Part shown: positions 13,337 to 24,423 of the stretch, in pieces
How positions within the stretch are numbered: position 1 is the stretch's first letter
Layout of the letters: every line of letters starts with the position of its first letter
Source: Lysobacter antibioticus
Lineage (GTDB): Bacteria; Pseudomonadota; Gammaproteobacteria; Xanthomonadales; Xanthomonadaceae
Length of the DNA stretch: 64,000 nt
Direction: 5' to 3'
Assembly (NCBI RefSeq): GCF_000731095.1
Contig: NZ_JMTZ01000043.1
Span: 1 to 64,000, forward strand
Position numbers and translations under genes: made by a program
The notes under the pieces: model-generated
Database searches by the model: none
What the model saw: only the letters and a program-made list of their open reading frames with translations
Told to the model about the DNA's origin: nothing

Positions 13337-15619
13337 ATGATCAGCGTCACCCATCTCGGCTTCCCGCGCATAGGCGCGCGGCGCGAGCTCAAGCTGGCCC
13401 TCGAATCGTTCTGGAAAGGCGACACGCCGGCCCAGGCGCTGCACGACACCGCCCACGGCCTGCGCGAACGCCATTGGCAACTGGCGCGGCAGGCCGGCGC
13501 CGACGTCGTGCCGTGCAACGATTTCTCCCTCTACGACCACGTCCTCGATACCGCCGTTCTGTTCGACGCGGTCCCCGCGCCGTACCGCGAGGTCTACGAC
13601 GAAAACCCGCTGACCGGCTACTTCGCCCTCGCCCGCGGCCTGCAGGACGGCCGTCGCGACCTGCACGCGCTCGAGATGACCAAGTGGTTCGACACCAACT
13701 ACCACTATCTGGTGCCACAGTTCGAGCGCGACCAACGCTTCGTCCTGCGCGGCGACAAGCCGCTGGCGGAACTGGCCCAGGCGCGCGAGCTCGGCATCCA
13801 GGCGCGACCGGTGCTGCTCGGCCCGGTGTCCTTCCTCAAGCTCGGCAAGCGCAGCGACGGCGGCGACCCGCGCGAGCTGCTCGATGCCCTGCTGCCGGCC
13901 TATGCCGAACTGCTCGGCAAGCTCAAGGCGGCGGGCGCCGACTGGGTCCAGCTCGATGAGCCGGCCCTGGTGCTCGACCTCGACGACGACGATCGCGACG
14001 CCTATCGCCGCGCTTATGCGGCCCTGGCCGAAGCCGACGCGCCGCAACGCTTGCTGACGACTTACTTCGGCGGCCTCGGCGACAACGCAGCCCTCGCCGC
14101 CCGCCTGCCGGTGCAAGGCCTGCACGTCGACCTGGTGCGCGCGCCGCAGCAGTTGGAAAGCGTGCTGCCGCTGTTGCCGGACGACCGCGTCCTCAGCCTC
14201 GGCGTGGTCGACGGCCGCAACATCTGGCGCGCCGATCTCGACGCCGCGCTGAGCCTGGCCCGCCGCGCCGGCGATCGCGCGCAATGGCTGGCGCCGTCGT
14301 GCTCGCTGTTGCACGTGCCGACCGACCTGGAACTGGAACGCAAGCTGCCCGCACCGCTGCGTCACTGGATGGCCTATGCGCGGCAGAAGATCGAGGAACT
14401 GCGCCTGCTCGCCGATGCCCTCACCGGCAGCGCCGACGCCAACCGCGACCTCGCCACCGCCGCCAGCGCGCGCGCTGCGCGCCTGGCCTCGCCGTTGCTG
14501 CGCAATGCCGAGGTGCGCAAGCGCCTGGCCGCGGTCGAACCGGCGATGACCCGGCGCGCCTCGCCCTACCCGCAACGCGCGAAGGTGCAGGCGCAGCGCC
14601 TCGGCCTGCCGCTGTTCCCGACCACCACCATCGGCTCGTTCCCGCAGACCGCCGAAGTGCGGCGCGCGCGCGCCGAGCACAAGGCCGGCAAGATCGACGA
14701 CGCGGCCTACCGGACCTTCCTGGAGAACGAGACCAAGCTGTGCCTGCGCGAGCAGGAAGCGCTGGGCATCGACGTGCTGGTGCACGGCGAGTTCGAACGC
14801 AACGACATGGTCGAGTACTTCGGCGAGCAGCTCGACGGTTTCGCCTTCACCGCCCACGGCTGGGTGCAGAGCTACGGCTCGCGTTGCGTCAAGCCGCCGG
14901 TGCTGTTCGGCGACGTGGTCCGGCCGCAGGCGATGACCGTCGACTGGACCCGTTACGCGCAGGCGCAAACCCAGCGGCCGGTCAAAGGCATGCTGACCGG
15001 ACCGGTGACGATCCTGCAGTGGTCCTTCGTCCGCGACGACCAACCGCGCGCCGACAGTTGCCGCCAGATCGCCCTGGCCCTGCGCCAGGAAGTGCTGGAC
15101 CTGGAAGCGGCCGGCATCGCCATCGTCCAGATCGACGAACCGGCCCTGCGCGAAGGCCTGCCGCTGCGCCGCGCCGACTGGCCGGCCTACCTGGCCTGGG
15201 CCGGGGAAAGCTTCCGCCTCGCCGCCAGCGGCGTCGGCGACGCGACCCAGATCCACACACACATGTGCTACGCCGAGTTCAACGACATCATCGAGGCGGT
15301 GGCCGCGCTCGACGCCGACGTGATCTCGATCGAGACCTCACGTTCGCGCATGGAGCTGCTGGACGCATTCGTACGTTATCGCTATCCGAACGGCATCGGC
15401 CCGGGCGTCTACGACATCCACTCGCCGCGCGTGCCCAGCGAGACCGAGATGCGCGACTTGCTCGACAAGGCGCTCGACGTGCTCGACCCGGCGCAGTTGT
15501 GGGTCAACCCGGACTGCGGTCTGAAGACCCGCGGTTGGCCGGAAGTGCGCTCGGCCCTGCGGGCGATGGTGCAGTCGGCGCGCGGCCTGCGCGAGCAGGT
15601 CGCCGCCGAAGTCGACTGA
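13337..15619 (+). CDS. metE: Cobalamin-independent methionine synthase
   Basis: 760 residues from ATG 13337 (MISVTHLGFPRIGARRELK). It transfers the methyl group of 5-methyltetrahydropteroyltri-L-glutamate to homocysteine without B12. There are two homologous barrel domains. The N-terminal barrel begins with the family signature FPRIGARRELK. The catalytic C-terminal barrel starts around LFPTTTIGSFPQT, and its zinc ligands are visible as His and Cys in IHTHMCYAEF, a Glu in SIETSRS, and Cys in NPDCGLKTR. The length is standard for the family (about 750-770). The open frame extends upstream to 13091 across the riboswitch and is ignored. Regulation by the upstream cobalamin riboswitch is clear. 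Confidence 0.97.
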   Translation: MISVTHLGFPRIGARRELKLALESFWKGDTPAQALHDTAHGLRERHWQLARQAGADVVPCNDFSLYDHVLDTAVLFDAVPAPYREVYDENPLTGYFALARGLQDGRRDLHALEMTKWFDTNYHYLVPQFERDQRFVLRGDKPLAELAQARELGIQARPVLLGPVSFLKLGKRSDGGDPRELLDALLPAYAELLGKLKAAGADWVQLDEPALVLDLDDDDRDAYRRAYAALAEADAPQRLLTTYFGGLGDNAALAARLPVQGLHVDLVRAPQQLESVLPLLPDDRVLSLGVVDGRNIWRADLDAALSLARRAGDRAQWLAPSCSLLHVPTDLELERKLPAPLRHWMAYARQKIEELRLLADALTGSADANRDLATAASARAARLASPLLRNAEVRKRLAAVEPAMTRRASPYPQRAKVQAQRLGLPLFPTTTIGSFPQTAEVRRARAEHKAGKIDDAAYRTFLENETKLCLREQEALGIDVLVHGEFERNDMVEYFGEQLDGFAFTAHGWVQSYGSRCVKPPVLFGDVVRPQAMTVDWTRYAQAQTQRPVKGMLTGPVTILQWSFVRDDQPRADSCRQIALALRQEVLDLEAAGIAIVQIDEPALREGLPLRRADWPAYLAWAGESFRLAASGVGDATQIHTHMCYAEFNDIIEAVAALDADVISIETSRSRMELLDAFVRYRYPNGIGPGVYDIHSPRVPSETEMRDLLDKALDVLDPAQLWVNPDCGLKTRGWPEVRSALRAMVQSARGLREQVAAEVD

Positions 15620-15702: not shown

Positions 15703-15849
15703 TTACATCACGTCGTAGGCCAGCACGTTCCACTGCTCCGGCTGGCCGGAGCTTTCCACCGAGCGCACGATCGCGCCGACGTCGGCGCCGGACACGCTGA
15801 ACGGTGCGACTTCGTAATCCAGATCCTGGATTTGCAGACTACCTTCCAT
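15703..15849 (-). CDS. 48-residue acidic peptide, putative modified-peptide precursor
   Basis: An ATG at 15849 preceded by AGGAG (8-nt spacing) opens a 48-residue frame, MEGSLQIQDLDYEVAPFSVS (1-20) to a C-terminus of WNVLAYDVM. It has eight acidic residues and one Arg, no Cys, and no membrane helix. It lies 63 bp downstream of, and on the same strand as, two proteins with a beta core and HEAT-type helices, and the strong SD argues that it is translated. I recognise no family. Size, acidity and context are compatible with a RiPP precursor or a small partner protein, but no leader motif, protease or exporter gene is adjacent. The function is a hypothesis. Confidence 0.6.
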   Translation of the reverse strand: MEGSLQIQDLDYEVAPFSVSGADVGAIVRSVESSGQPEQWNVLAYDVM

Positions 15850-15912
15850 AGAGTTGCTCCTGATTCGCCGGCCTGATGGCATCCCGCGGCGCGCCGGCGA
15901 CGCCGCGCAGAT

Positions 15913-16824
15913 TCATTGCAGCGTCTGCAGCACCTTGCTCGCATGGTCGCGGACCATCGCGCAATCGTCGGCGTACAGGCGCTCGAGCGCGCCGCGATAA
16001 GCGTCGCTATCCTCGCGCAGGCCGTCCAGGCACATCAGGCGCATGCGCGGCGGCAGCACCGTCGAGTCGACCACGTCGGCGAACAGCGGCGTGAGTTCGT
16101 CGCCGCCGACCAGCACCGCCATTTCCGCCAGCATCGACAAGCGGCTGTGGATGCTCGCCGAGGTGTAGCTGAGGATGCGCGCGCGCTCTTCCCCGAATTC
16201 CTGTTCGAACACGAAGTTGTACTGGCATTTGGCGATCTGGCTTTGATTGTTGAACAGCACGTTCAACGAGATCGACAACTCGTCCGGCGGCGCCTGCCGG
16301 TGCACGTCGCGGTGGGCGCGGTAGAGCATGATCTTGCCCTTGGGCAGGGTCGTGACCTCCGAATCCAGGATGCGCGCGCTGTCGCCGATGGCGCCGGTCA
16401 GTTCGCTCGGGTCGATCTCGGCGATGTGGGTGCGATAGCCCGAGCCGAAATAACCGACGGTGAGGAAATGGAAGTTGTGGTCGTGGGCGGTGTCGTACGA
16501 GTACGCGCGCTCCTCGTTCTTGCGCAGGGCGCCGGTCTGCTTCAGCGGCGACCACACGTTGGCGCGGATCATCACGTGCTTGCGCCGCGCGATCACGTAG
16601 CACTGCGGAGCGACGAACGGCGGCGGCTCGCCGTCGAGGATCGAGCGCAGCGACCGCGCCATGGTGCGCGCGACCAGGGCCGGGTCGTTGGCGTAGGCGG
16701 CGAGCACCGGCGCGGCTTCGGCGATGCTGTCCGGGTCGAGCGTATCGACCCGGCTGAAGATGAAATCGAACAGCTCTTCTTCGCTGGCCACCGTGGTCGC
16801 GGTGGCATTCAAGGTATAAGCCAT
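15913..16824 (-). CDS. Cupin-like/HEAT-type protein with a His-rich putative metal site
   Basis: 303 residues from ATG 16824 (SD GAGGAC). An N-terminal helical region of about 75 residues is followed by a beta-rich core. The core contains TAHDHNFHFLTVGYFGSGYRTHI (about residues 112-134) and LPKGKIMLYRAHRDVHRQ, a pair of His-bearing strands reminiscent of the two cupin motifs. C-terminal helices resemble HEAT repeats (LTPLFADVVDSTVLPPRMRLMCLDGLRED; CAMVRDHASKVLQTL). A metal-dependent, perhaps oxygenase-type, activity is inferred from the histidines only. The upstream neighbour has the same layout without these histidines. No named family is recognised. Confidence 0.65.
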   Translation of the reverse strand: MAYTLNATATTVASEEELFDFIFSRVDTLDPDSIAEAAPVLAAYANDPALVARTMARSLRSILDGEPPPFVAPQCYVIARRKHVMIRANVWSPLKQTGALRKNEERAYSYDTAHDHNFHFLTVGYFGSGYRTHIAEIDPSELTGAIGDSARILDSEVTTLPKGKIMLYRAHRDVHRQAPPDELSISLNVLFNNQSQIAKCQYNFVFEQEFGEERARILSYTSASIHSRLSMLAEMAVLVGGDELTPLFADVVDSTVLPPRMRLMCLDGLREDSDAYRGALERLYADDCAMVRDHASKVLQTLQ

Positions 16825-16842
16825 GGCGGTGTCCTCAAGCGG

Positions 16843-17706
16843 TCAGGCGGTCGGGGCCAGGGCGGCGAGCGAACGCGTCGCGGCCCGGCGGATGTCGTCG
16901 TGCTCGTCGTCGACGGCATCGTGCAAACGCTCCAGCGCGGCCTGCGGATCGACCTTGCCGAGCAGTTGAATGGCCGACCAGCGCACGAAATGGCGCGGGT
17001 GCCGGCTCAGTTCGAGCAAGGCCTGCGGCGCCTGCTCCGCGTCGATAGTGGCCAGGGTCTGGCCGATGCAGACCAGTTCGGAGTCGCTCAGGCGCGCGGA
17101 AATGCAGCTGTCGGCACGCAGCGTCTCGGGATCGAAGCGCCATTGCAGATCGACCGCGCTTTGCGAGAGCAACAACACCACGATGGTCGGTTGCCGAACG
17201 TCGACCTTGAACGCGGCATCGTCCACGCCCAGCGCCACGGCCTCGCCGTTGGCCAGTTCGATGCGGCGGTTGAGCTGCACGCTCTGCTCGCGTTCGAAGT
17301 AGGCGTTGCGGAAGCTCTCGCCGGTGGCGTAGGTGCTCAGCTCGATGGCGCCGGCGGCGACGCCGATGCAGGCGTACTGCGACAGGGTGAAGATGCCGCT
17401 GGACGAGCTGAAGTAGCGCGACAGGTGCAACGACCAGCCCTCGCCCGACATCAGGAACACGCCGTGCCGGCTCCACAGGCCGCCGCGGTTCCAGTTTTCC
17501 CACAACAACGCCTGTTCGCCGTCGCCGAGCAGATCGGACAGCTCCTGGCGCAAGCGCGCGGCGATGGCGCCCGATTGCAGCAGGGTCTGCAGGTCCGCCT
17601 GCATATCGACGATGCCGGCGATGCCGCGCTCGCCGACGCGCCGGTCGACGGCATGCTTGAAGCGCGCGAATCTGGAATCGGCTAAAGAGCGCGATTGTGC
17701 ATCCAT
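16843..17706 (-). CDS. HEAT-repeat protein, likely degenerate paralogue of its downstream neighbour
   Basis: 287 residues from ATG 17706 (SD AAGGAAGG). The layout parallels the 16824-15913 product: helical N-terminus (about 1-60), beta-rich core (HGVFLMSGEGWSLHLSRYF ... TIVVLLLSQSAVDLQWRF), then two clear HEAT-like helix pairs (ALLELSRHPRHFVRWSAIQLLG and DAVDDEHDDIRRAATRSLAALA). The core lacks the HxHxxxH cluster of the neighbour, so it is probably a non-catalytic partner or scaffold. It is the first gene of a three-gene unit (19-bp gap to the second gene). HEAT repeats usually mediate protein binding. Confidence 0.65.
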   Translation of the reverse strand: MDAQSRSLADSRFARFKHAVDRRVGERGIAGIVDMQADLQTLLQSGAIAARLRQELSDLLGDGEQALLWENWNRGGLWSRHGVFLMSGEGWSLHLSRYFSSSSGIFTLSQYACIGVAAGAIELSTYATGESFRNAYFEREQSVQLNRRIELANGEAVALGVDDAAFKVDVRQPTIVVLLLSQSAVDLQWRFDPETLRADSCISARLSDSELVCIGQTLATIDAEQAPQALLELSRHPRHFVRWSAIQLLGKVDPQAALERLHDAVDDEHDDIRRAATRSLAALAPTA

Positions 17707-18242: not shown

Positions 18243-19548
<1,306 letters not shown>

Positions 19549-22248: not shown

Positions 22249-23043
22249 ATGAACCCGATCCGCCGCCGCTGGCTGGGCGCCTTGTGCACGCTCGCCGCGG
22301 TTTTCGCGGCCGCTTCGGCGCACGCCGCGCCGAAGCCCGAGACTGCACCGATCACGGTGTTCGCCGCCGCCAGCCTCAAGGAATCGCTCGACGAAGCCGC
22401 GGCCGCGTACACCCGGGCCAGCGGGCAATCGGTGCGGGTGTCCTACGCCGCCAGTTCCGCCCTCGCCCGCCAGATCGAACAGGGCGCGCCGGCCGACGTC
22501 TTCCTCTCGGCCGACCGGGACTGGATGGACTACCTGCAGCAACGCAAGCTCATCGACGCCGGCAGCCGCCGCAATCTGCTCGGCAACCGCCTGGTGCTGA
22601 TCGCGGCGAAGGCCAGTAGCGCCCAACGGGTCGCGCTCAAGCCCGGCGTCGACCTGCGCCCCCTGCTCGGCGACGGCCGCATCGCCCTGGCCCTGACCGG
22701 CAGCGTGCCGGCCGGCAAGTACGCACGCGCGGCGTTCACCTCGCTCGGCGTCTGGACCGCGCTGCAACCCAAGGTCGCCGAGGCCGAGAACGTGCGCGCC
22801 GCGCTGATGCTGGTCGCGCGTGGCGAGGCCCCGCTCGGCGTGGTCTACGCCAGCGACGCCCGCGCCGAACCGAAGGTGCGCGTGTTGGCGACCTTCCCGG
22901 CCGACAGCCATCCGCCGATCGTGTACCCGGTCGCCCGCGTGAGCGGCAGCCGGCAGCCGCGTGCGGCGGTGTTCGCGCAGTGGCTGAAGAGCCCGGCCGC
23001 GGCGGCCATCTTCCGCCGCCACGGTTTCGCGACCCTGGACTGA
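22249..23043 (+). CDS. modA: Molybdate ABC transporter, periplasmic binding protein
   Basis: 264 residues. Signal peptide (WLGALCTLAAVFAAASAHA), then the ModA core: ITVFAAASLKESLDEAAAAY (oxyanion-binding Ser at about residue 41), VSYAASSALARQIEQGAPADVFLSAD, and the C-terminal GVVYASDARAEPKVRVLATFP. It captures molybdate or tungstate and delivers it to ModB. First gene of a compact modABC operon (10 bp to modB). No ModE gene or Moco-type riboswitch is visible in the 57 bp upstream. Confidence 0.95.
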   Translation: MNPIRRRWLGALCTLAAVFAAASAHAAPKPETAPITVFAAASLKESLDEAAAAYTRASGQSVRVSYAASSALARQIEQGAPADVFLSADRDWMDYLQQRKLIDAGSRRNLLGNRLVLIAAKASSAQRVALKPGVDLRPLLGDGRIALALTGSVPAGKYARAAFTSLGVWTALQPKVAEAENVRAALMLVARGEAPLGVVYASDARAEPKVRVLATFPADSHPPIVYPVARVSGSRQPRAAVFAQWLKSPAAAAIFRRHGFATLD

Positions 23044-23053
23044 CCGCGCGACG

Positions 23054-23746
23054 ATGTTCGACTTCAGCCCGGCCGAACTGACCGCGATCGCGCTCAGCCT
23101 CAAGGTCGCCACGGTCGCGACCCTGGGCAGTCTGCCGCTCGGCATCGCGATGGGCTGGCTGCTGGCGCGCACCCGTTTCCCCGGCAAGCTGTTGTTCGAC
23201 ACCTTGCTGTACCTGCCGCTGGTGTTGCCGCCGGTGGTCACCGGCTACGCCTTGTTGATCCTGTTCGGCACCCAAGGCGCGGTCGGGCGTTTCCTGTCGG
23301 ACTACTTCCACTTCAGCTTCGCCTTCCGCTGGACCGGCGCCGCCCTGGCCAGCGCGATCATGGGGTTTCCGTTGATGGTGCGGGCGATCCGCCTGTCGAT
23401 CGAAGCGGTCGACCGCCGCCTCGAACAGGCCGCCTCGACCCTCGGCGCGAACCGCTGGCGGGTGTTCTTCGGCGTGACCCTGCCGCTGGCCTGGCCCGGG
23501 CTGGTCGCCGGCGCGGTGCTGTCGTTCGCCAAGGCGCTCGGCGAGTTCGGCGCCACCATCACCTTCGTGTCCAACATCCCCGGCGAAACCCAGACCCTGT
23601 CGTCGGCGATCTACGGGCTGATGCAGGTGCCCGACGGCGAGTCCGGCGTGCTGCGGCTGGCCCTGGTCGCGGTGGCGATTTCGTTCGCCGCGGTGTTCGC
23701 CTCGGAGTGGCTGGTGCAACGGCAGCGACGCGAGACCCACCGATGA
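23054..23746 (+). CDS. modB: Molybdate ABC transporter, permease
   Basis: 230 residues with about five membrane helices. The inner-membrane component-type signature is present in EQAASTLGANRWRVFFGVTLPLAWPGLVAGAVLSFAKALGEFGATI (EAAxxxGA...G...P), which contacts the ATPase. The length is typical for ModB. The stop codon overlaps the modC start (ATGA at 23743-23746). Confidence 0.95.
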   Translation: MFDFSPAELTAIALSLKVATVATLGSLPLGIAMGWLLARTRFPGKLLFDTLLYLPLVLPPVVTGYALLILFGTQGAVGRFLSDYFHFSFAFRWTGAALASAIMGFPLMVRAIRLSIEAVDRRLEQAASTLGANRWRVFFGVTLPLAWPGLVAGAVLSFAKALGEFGATITFVSNIPGETQTLSSAIYGLMQVPDGESGVLRLALVAVAISFAAVFASEWLVQRQRRETHR

Positions 23747-24423
23747 CCGAGACCAAGCCGGATCGCGACCGTAGCGTGGGCGATCCGCCCATGGACGACC
23801 TCCATGTCCTCGATTTCAGCCTGCGCCGCGGCAGCTTCGAACGCAGCGTGAGCATTCGCAGCCGCCATCGGGTGATCGCCCTGGTCGGCGAATCCGGCGC
23901 CGGCAAGACCTCGCTGCTGTATGCGGTGGCCGGGCTGCTGCGGCCGCAACGCGGCCGCATCGAGATCGCCGGCCGCTGCCTGTTCGACAGCGAACGCGGC
24001 ATCGACGTACCGGTGCATCGCCGCCGCATCGGCTACGTGTTTCAGGATGCGCGCCTGTTTCCGCACCTCAACGTGCGCCGCAACCTGCTGTACGGCCTGC
24101 ACGGCGAAGCGCGGCACTCGCCGCGCTTCGCCTTCGAGGCCATCGTCGACTTGCTCGGCATCGCGCCCTTGCTCGAGCGCGATACCGCCGGCCTGTCCGG
24201 CGGCGAAAGCCAGCGCGTCGCCCTGGGGCGCGCGCTCTTGTCCCAGCCGCACATCCTGTTGCTGGACGAGCCGCTTTCGATGCTGGACATGAACCGCCGC
24301 GACGAACTGTTGCCTTATCTGCAGCGGGTACGCGACGAGATCGCGTTGCCGATGATCTACGTCAGTCACTATCCCGAGGAAGTACGACGCATCGCCGACG
24401 AGGTGCACACTGTCGGTGCCTGA
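23743..24423 (+). CDS. modC: Molybdate ABC transporter, ATP-binding protein lacking a TOBE domain
   Basis: 226 residues from ATG 23743, overlapping the modB stop by 4 bp. ATPase motifs are complete: Walker A GESGAGKTS (about residues 45-53), signature LSGGESQRVALGRALLSQP, Walker B ILLLDEPLSMLD, and the H-loop YVSHYPEE. Full-length ModC proteins run to about 350 residues and end in a molybdate-binding TOBE domain. This one stops right after the ATPase domain (VHTVGA). Transport should still work, but TOBE-mediated feedback would be absent. Confidence 0.92.
   Translation: MTETKPDRDRSVGDPPMDDLHVLDFSLRRGSFERSVSIRSRHRVIALVGESGAGKTSLLYAVAGLLRPQRGRIEIAGRCLFDSERGIDVPVHRRRIGYVFQDARLFPHLNVRRNLLYGLHGEARHSPRFAFEAIVDLLGIAPLLERDTAGLSGGESQRVALGRALLSQPHILLLDEPLSMLDMNRRDELLPYLQRVRDEIALPMIYVSHYPEEVRRIADEVHTVGA

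Follow-up and report, generated by a model that had tools for sequence, protein, structure and literature searches.

The stretch of DNA analysed here (the window) comprises 64,000 nucleotides of Lysobacter antibioticus (assembly GCF_000731095.1, contig NZ_JMTZ01000043.1, positions 1 to 64,000 of the forward strand). On its minus strand lies a trio of genes that we regard as a candidate system for a ribosomally synthesized and post-translationally modified peptide (RiPP). Gene1 (16843..17706, with its ATG at 17706) encodes a protein of 287 amino acids, gene2 (15913..16824) a protein of 303 amino acids, and the third gene (15703..15849) a precursor-like peptide of 48 amino acids that was absent from the original frame list. 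The peptide contains 8 acidic residues and 1 basic residue, and an AGGAG ribosome-binding site (15857..15861, minus strand) lies 7 nucleotides ahead of its ATG. An earlier interpretation made from the letters of the window (the sequence-only reading) had placed the three frames on this strand, with the ribosome-binding site and a very acidic small product, and all of this was confirmed.

It had also been claimed that the two larger proteins share a layout of helical N-terminus, beta-rich core and C-terminal HEAT-like helices. Alignments of 11 gene1 and 11 gene2 sequences, when compared with HHalign, matched with a probability of 95.2 and an E value of 2.9e-8, and because this match extends over 264 columns, gene1 and gene2 are, as judged from their sequences, paralogues across almost their entire length. 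The structures predicted with AlphaFold2 (mean predicted local distance difference test score, pLDDT, 89.4 for gene2 and 82.8 for gene1) both had a helical N-terminus, a beta core and a helical C-terminus, in agreement with the proposed layout. The C-termini of both models are HEAT-like. To the C-terminus of gene1 Pfam HEAT_2 was fitted with E 4.8e-10, the sole Pfam cut-off passed by this protein; no Pfam row, HEAT_2 included, was obtained with gene2 at E <= 1.

In fold comparisons thiol dioxygenases were the best matches of both models. For gene2 they were led by 8vni, a mercaptosuccinate dioxygenase (Z 13.7, root mean square deviation 3.6, 170 residues aligned); 4tlf scored Z 12.6, the cysteine dioxygenases (CDO) of rat and human about 12 and PCO5 12.0, and Foldseek returned 6xb9 with E 3.3e-6. 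The gene1 model matched 8vni (Z 14.3, root mean square deviation 3.8, 170 residues aligned), 4qma (Z 14.3) and 4tlf (Z 14.1). Rows at most 1 Z apart were treated as tied, so that the matches do not resolve the particular enzyme, and absence from the fold list carries no weight. The matches covered about residues 9-223 and 9-206, with the C-terminal helices falling outside. According to the predicted models, both proteins have the thiol-dioxygenase fold.

The motifs HDHNFHF (residues 114-120; 16465..16485, minus strand) and HRDVH were found in gene2 and not in gene1 of the window, as the sequence-only reading had stated. H114 and H116 would be the first two metal-binding histidines, and H175, located in the segment DVHRQ (residues 173-177; 16294..16308, minus strand), the third. 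D173, H175 and Q177 were invariant in all 11 rows of the gene2 alignment A1. Conservation was then followed in a set of 111 gene2 loci of 3.0-20.6 kb each, from which L001 and L002 had been dropped as duplicates of L045 and L046; the gene2 matches of genomes G1030, G1053, G1111, G1115 and G1126 lie outside this set. The set is phylogenetically unbalanced, with 87 loci coming from one family (f213, probably Sphingomonadaceae by its synteny with the named loci L008 and L009), and fourteen loci within L075-L098 have flanks of only 1.5 kb. The first motif contained H-x-H at every locus and HDH.F.F at 106 of them, and the D.H.Q pattern was likewise present in 111/111. At 107 of the 111 loci a frame of at least 180 amino acids runs up to the start of gene2; some H-x-H was seen in the central 160 residues of 15 of these 107 frames, and in one of them D.H.Q was present as well. 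Gene1 looks like a degenerate partner of gene2, and the earlier proposal of one catalytic and one degenerate cupin-type paralogue was upheld by the profile comparison, the two structure predictions and the fold comparison.

The cysteine dioxygenase that the host itself encodes has HDHSGLW ... EYH ... SLHIY at the places where gene2 has HDHNFHF ... DVH ... SLNVL. Because the motifs follow each other in the same order, each of the family's three iron ligands appears to have a counterpart in gene2, which would make up a putative 3-His site. The Ser-His-Tyr motif is not kept: gene2 has S186-L-N188-V-L190 (S-x-N-x-L) at this position. According to the available part of PMC13194613, the motif is typical of small-molecule thiol dioxygenases, and ADO departs from it too. 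No PF05995 (CDO_I) row was obtained with gene2 at E <= 1. As gene2 lacks two of the defining marks of the family, the profile match and the Ser-His-Tyr motif, it is on these sequence grounds not filed under CDO_I. A profile of 15 genuine CDO members (of 20, recovered from the genus of the window) gave a non-significant alignment with gene2, in which the two HDH motifs fell together, DVH of gene2 stood opposite EYH, and SLN opposite SLH; no alignment of this profile with gene1 was obtained.

A known family for gene1 or gene2 was rejected on the basis of the Pfam, NCBIfam and PDB sequence searches: with gene2 no NCBIfam match above cut-off was obtained, and the best E value in the PDB search with the gene2 profile was only 0.39. 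HExxH, MNIO and JmjC enzyme identities were set aside because of the lack of a Pfam match of gene2 at E <= 1. PADLOC returned matches to gene1 only (best E 8.4e-6) and none to gene2 or the peptide; as these were partial matches to the HEAT repeats, an anti-phage defence system was rejected. A phage origin was rejected as well, since no relative was found in viral contigs (searched with the gene2 alignment A1) or in phage records.

A first scan detected gene2 at 10 loci, in Lysobacter, Silanimonas, Pseudoduganella, Nevskia, Sphingomonadaceae and Neokomagataea; at every one of them a gene1-like frame directly precedes it. Among the PLSDB plasmids one relative was found at E <= 1e-5 (Alteromonas CP013927). 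The gene2 tree, which omitted sequences shorter than 200 amino acids or with stops, placed Silanimonas L046 closest outside the genus (support 0.998). By the rule used, no adjacent gene1-type frame was seen at L063, L145, L151 and L153 (the last at a contig edge), and the gene2 matches in three f213 genomes (G953, G1097 and G1145) span an in-frame stop; because of these two observations the system may be decaying in places.

GC-rich DNA is rich in spurious frames, and the peptide could be one that lies by chance next to two genes with which it has nothing to do. Small frames were collected by a fixed rule (an ATG frame of 30-75 amino acids preceded by a Shine-Dalgarno sequence, in the flanks of the gene1-gene2 pair). 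Such a frame was present beside the pair at 87 of 111 loci. On the antisense strand of these windows the count was 28 of 111, and in random windows elsewhere it was 23 of 90; that the rule is satisfied in about a quarter of the control windows speaks for chance. A precursor profile made from 29 seeds was run against 10,840 small frames of the 111 loci and yielded 64 matches at E <= 0.01, one per locus (26 of these loci had supplied seeds, 38 had not). All 64 lie on the gene2 strand, 1,020-1,328 nucleotides ahead of gene2 and just upstream of gene1. A profile made from five peptides of the group B type (see below), none of them from Lysobacter, was run over all 392 small frames of the window and ranked the window peptide first, with E 0.0021 against 0.7 for the runner-up, and the peptide was present at all four gene2-holding loci of the genus. 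In family f213, 87 of 249 genomes have gene2, 72 of 249 the precursor and 69 both (Fisher p 2e-40); 18 of the gene2 genomes are without a precursor match at E <= 0.001. Taken together, the profile, the position, the co-occurrence, the substitution pattern and the antisense and random-window controls led us to reject the chance frame at the family level, and we find this explanation hardly credible. The sequence-only reading was therefore right in expecting the small frame next to the pair to be conserved, also in the neighbourhoods within the genus. Its placement of this frame downstream of the pair holds for Lysobacter, Silanimonas, L047, L048 and L053, but in most relatives the peptide sits upstream of gene1. 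In genome G1097 the precursor match and gene2 are about 40 kb apart.

Lack of selection on the peptide had been named beforehand as a sign against a functional product. The L177/L178 peptides differ by 21 synonymous and 7 nonsynonymous substitutions (omega 0.08), L121/L127 by 16.8 and 9.2, and L149/L152 by 7 and 0; apart from the two pairs discussed below, the others with both kinds of change had omega values of 0.18-0.24 or saturated synonymous sites. Purifying selection acts on the peptide in the Sphingomonadaceae-like family, so that there the objection falls; it retains some force for Lysobacter and for the pair L090/L119 (see below).

The N-termini of the peptides look like leaders, and the C-termini are usually rich in Ile/Val. 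Group A (M-x-LPKIDL-SLPDLDT-TG-FGS ... DDRIVIIMVYLYE) is Cys-free and conserved at both ends. Group B is variable throughout and often contains V-(G/A)-G-x-x-C and then a run of hydrophobic residues (loci L003, L046-L048, L050, L129, L130, L133, L141, L145 and L163); the Lysobacter peptide resembles this group (EVAPFSVS-ADVGAIV) minus the Cys. Two or three non-identical precursors are encoded at L015, L050 and L053, and at L050 and L053 the N-terminal parts of the copies are, judged by eye, more alike than the C-terminal parts.

The thiol-dioxygenase fold and the Cys that many group B peptides have in V-(G/A)-G-x-x-C would be compatible with a cysteine dioxygenase-like enzyme that converts this Cys to sulfinic acid, the Cys-free peptides being divergent or decaying. 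However, Cys was found inside the peptide proper in 6 of the 64 profile matches (the profile had been built on Cys-free seeds), and without the profile at the expected places in 20 of 92 rule-based frames (from 86 loci, some frames being due to chance), leaving 72 of 92 Cys-free. Moreover, the most conserved peptides, those of group A, are Cys-free, and gene2 has S-x-N-x-L in place of the Ser-His-Tyr motif. We consider Cys oxidation very unlikely as the general function. Because most peptides lack Cys, a thiol is unlikely as a general target, and from the peptide sequences the target would probably be a group other than a thiol.

The sequence-only reading had reported no transporter gene, as a point against a classical RiPP. 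This holds around the trio of the window, but some relatives have exporters of the Yip1/HlyD/ATPase/MacB, ABC-2 or C39-peptidase type. At L050 Yip1 (E 6.4e-14), HlyD_D23, ABC_tran and MacB_PCD + FtsX are followed by three precursors, gene1 and gene2, and after gene2 by ABC_tran and by a match to ABC2_membrane that is weak and does not reach the cut-off. The Alteromonas plasmid locus L015 has the same order (Yip1 with E 9.6e-9, HlyD_D23, ABC_tran, MacB_PCD + FtsX, then two precursors), with ABC_tran and ABC2_membrane_3 after gene2. Downstream of gene2 in L046 lie the precursor, a membrane-like frame with no Pfam match, an ABC ATPase and Yip1 (identified by Pfam), and further frames that in tblastn match three proteins of L050, namely the HlyD adaptor and the ATPase and permease of the MacB type. 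Parts of the exporter set were recognized by similarity at L047-L049 (in L048 the precursor is followed by one frame without a Pfam match and one ABC ATPase), and L064, an f213 locus, has a C39-peptidase ABC exporter with HlyD. Within 9 kb, exporter queries matched at 13 of the 111 loci, although some of the matches are generic ATPases and some loci are short-flanked; the 13 include L043-L045, where the ATPase is about 7 kb off.

The four parts present at L015, L046 and L050 (Yip1, adaptor, ATPase and MacB-like permease) are those of YknWXYZ, the exporter that shields Bacillus from the SDP peptide toxin (available part of PMC4887032); unlike these loci, the window showed no such set with the exporter queries. 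Yip1 proteins occur in bacteriocin clusters, as stated in the accessible part of PMC11580447. These likenesses would fit a secreted, bacteriocin-like peptide that is unmodified or trimmed, with gene1 and gene2 serving immunity or sensing. Immunity proteins would, however, have no need of the conserved 3-His pattern, and exporter matches were obtained at only the 13 loci mentioned, generic ATPases included. We regard this explanation as quite improbable.

We consider it likely that the trio is a RiPP-like system, in which a two-subunit iron enzyme of thiol-dioxygenase fold oxidises the small peptide. A short precursor gene conserved beside candidate modifying-enzyme genes, by which RiPP systems are recognized, was found except at the Nevskia loci. 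Computation has shown that gene1 and gene2 are paralogues with this predicted fold, that the histidines and the peptide are conserved, and that the peptide is linked to the pair; from these we infer iron, the use of O2, a heterodimer, leader binding, modification and secretion. In the precursor encoded by the small gene, the N-terminal part, acidic and leader-like (L-x-I-x-D-L / ID-L-x-x-LPDL), would precede a short core, usually rich in Ile/Val. Gene1, the inactive paralogue, would probably form a heterodimer with gene2, binding the leader and presenting the core, and the HEAT-like tails may hold the two proteins together or grip the peptide. Gene2 would be the catalyst, a 3-His iron cupin oxidising the core with O2, and oxidation would be followed by cleavage and, in some hosts, export. 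Where the cluster bears an exporter the product would be secreted; in Lysobacter and at most Sphingomonadaceae-like loci the exporter, if any, would be encoded elsewhere. More tentatively, such systems could represent a new RiPP class, characterized by a heterodimer of two proteins with thiol-dioxygenase fold and HEAT tail, one catalytic and one inactive, whose 3-His iron oxidises non-thiol positions of the core, perhaps Ile/Val or backbone C-H.

Several observations weigh against the RiPP-like system. The alignment of gene2 with the genuine CDO profile was far from significance (probability 0.3, E 0.2). No credible precursor was found beside the pair at any of the four Nevskia loci: the rule found no frame at three of them, and the one rule-based frame at L004 is antisense to a neighbouring gene and chance-like. 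The best match in a whole-genome precursor search of Nevskia (E 0.13) was not convincing, and no exporter query match was obtained at the Nevskia loci. Three f213 genomes (G964, G1166 and G1169) have a precursor match without gene2; these are either orphan peptides or cases of missed partners. The window and L044 peptides differ by 8 synonymous and 13 nonsynonymous substitutions (omega about 0.47), and the sphingomonad-like pair L090/L119, the weakest case, by 2.8 and 6.2 (omega about 0.76). The Lysobacter peptide has a weak Ile/Val stretch and a C-terminus that varies from species to species. The exporter queries found a single ATPase over the window (at 23.8-24.4 kb) and none beside the trio. 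In f213, 73 of the 87 loci are near housekeeping genes, 45 of them with ruvX, a location unusual for a bacteriocin, and exporter queries matched only at L064, L129 and L143, the latter two matches possibly being generic ATPases.

Housekeeping-type genes lie near 58 of the 64 profile-hit loci; by name we take these neighbours to be ruvX, lysA, siroheme-synthase-like, thioesterase-like, lepB and AI-2E-permease-like genes. Such a stable location, in a family (the Sphingomonadaceae-like one) most of whose loci gave no exporter match, would also suit an unmodified peptide acting as a structural or regulatory partner of gene1 and gene2 (for example, a sensor ligand or a stability subunit), with the cupin acting on a small molecule. 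In that family purifying selection extends over the whole peptide, C-terminus included, and for an acidic peptide protein-protein contact is plausible. On the other hand, some loci have two or three diverged copies with N-termini more alike (by eye) or have exporter and C39-peptidase neighbours, and quite different C-termini occur at the same site. We consider a partner peptide of this kind unlikely. For the more tentative reading of a new RiPP class, the presence of gene2 in about a third (87 of 249) of the sampled f213 genomes, in which it mostly occupies a housekeeping location and not a cluster of the bacteriocin type, hints at an internal signal or cofactor.

The thiol dioxygenases (CDO, 3-mercaptopropionate and mercaptosuccinate dioxygenase, ADO and plant PCO) resemble gene2 in the predicted fold, including the N-terminal helices (Z 10-14 among the matches listed), and in HDH plus a later H in 3-His order. 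Besides having no PF05995 match and no Ser-His-Tyr motif, gene2 differs from them by the added helical C-terminus, by the adjoining paralogue without the histidine pattern and, usually, by the small peptide gene. We know of no described RiPP route that uses an enzyme of the cysteine-dioxygenase fold. In full-text searches of the open-licence literature, with subscription papers mostly outside, none of the matches listed (for some searches the top 10-15 of 292, 269, 53 and 22) describes such a system in its title or the opening of its abstract. MNIO enzymes (DUF692) are TIM barrels with multinuclear iron, a fold different from that of gene1 and gene2, which are predicted to be paralogous cupins. 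What MNIO RiPP clusters have in common with the trio is a gene for an iron-type enzyme that has genes for a partner protein and a short precursor next to it, as far as described in the available part of PMC12257519. The same part of that paper presents PbsQ as a cupin-fold RiPP hydroxylase; PbsQ and BpmG, of biphenomycin-like clusters, share with gene2 the action, proposed for gene2, of a cupin-fold enzyme on a ribosomal peptide, but they are JmjC-type and stand among other RiPP enzymes, with no HEAT tail or inactive twin mentioned there (PMC12257519). That a thiol-dioxygenase fold can act on polypeptides has precedent, because ADO acts on the N-terminal Cys of proteins (PMC13194613, available part). 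If the proposed function is true, the trio would provide a new enzyme scaffold for peptide modification and 3-His iron cupins able to oxidise non-sulfur positions, and the two unannotated families together with the peptide would serve as a gene handle on proteobacterial genomes.

In the window the trio lies between what we take, judging from the translations, to be the GAPDH gene (gap; 18243-19247, minus strand) and a convergent metE, which ends at 15619. Gene2 is present in 4 of 20 genomes of the genus, and in all four gene1 comes after gap. In the 16 other genomes metE was located at most 1.5 kb from gap in 7 and was not in the available stretch in 9. Given this closeness of gap and metE in genomes without gene2, the trio is an accessory element at the gap/metE site in the genus; gain and loss are not told apart by these data. 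Farther away on the plus strand, the segment 20273-22191 contains what appear to be an S1/P1-nuclease-like frame and then a metallo-beta-lactamase-fold frame resembling persulfide dioxygenase. Positions 22249-24423 (plus strand) contain three frames that presumably correspond to modA, modB and modC of molybdate uptake, of which only the ATPase similarity was computed. The ABC ATPase at 23.8-24.4 kb, about 7 kb from the trio, was rejected as its exporter, since it adjoins the modA/modB-looking frames and presumably is the modC of this set.

Some relatives have additional frames. In Pseudoduganella (L003, 4482-5133) a membrane-like frame of 145 amino acids lies between the precursor and gene1, and at L055 (5673-6902) a frame resembling a JmjC-type cupin and an antisense frame of 50 amino acids adjoin the gene1-gene2 pair. 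The Xanthomonadaceae loci L052 (7010-11200) and L054 (2601-4248) encode short, diverged gene2 homologues, two of them in L052, together with a peptide of repeated motifs (MPPQ...MLPPQ; STLFIFAA...STAFIFAA), and represent a distinct subtype; small frames further on at these loci resemble, as we presume, Nif11-type leaders.

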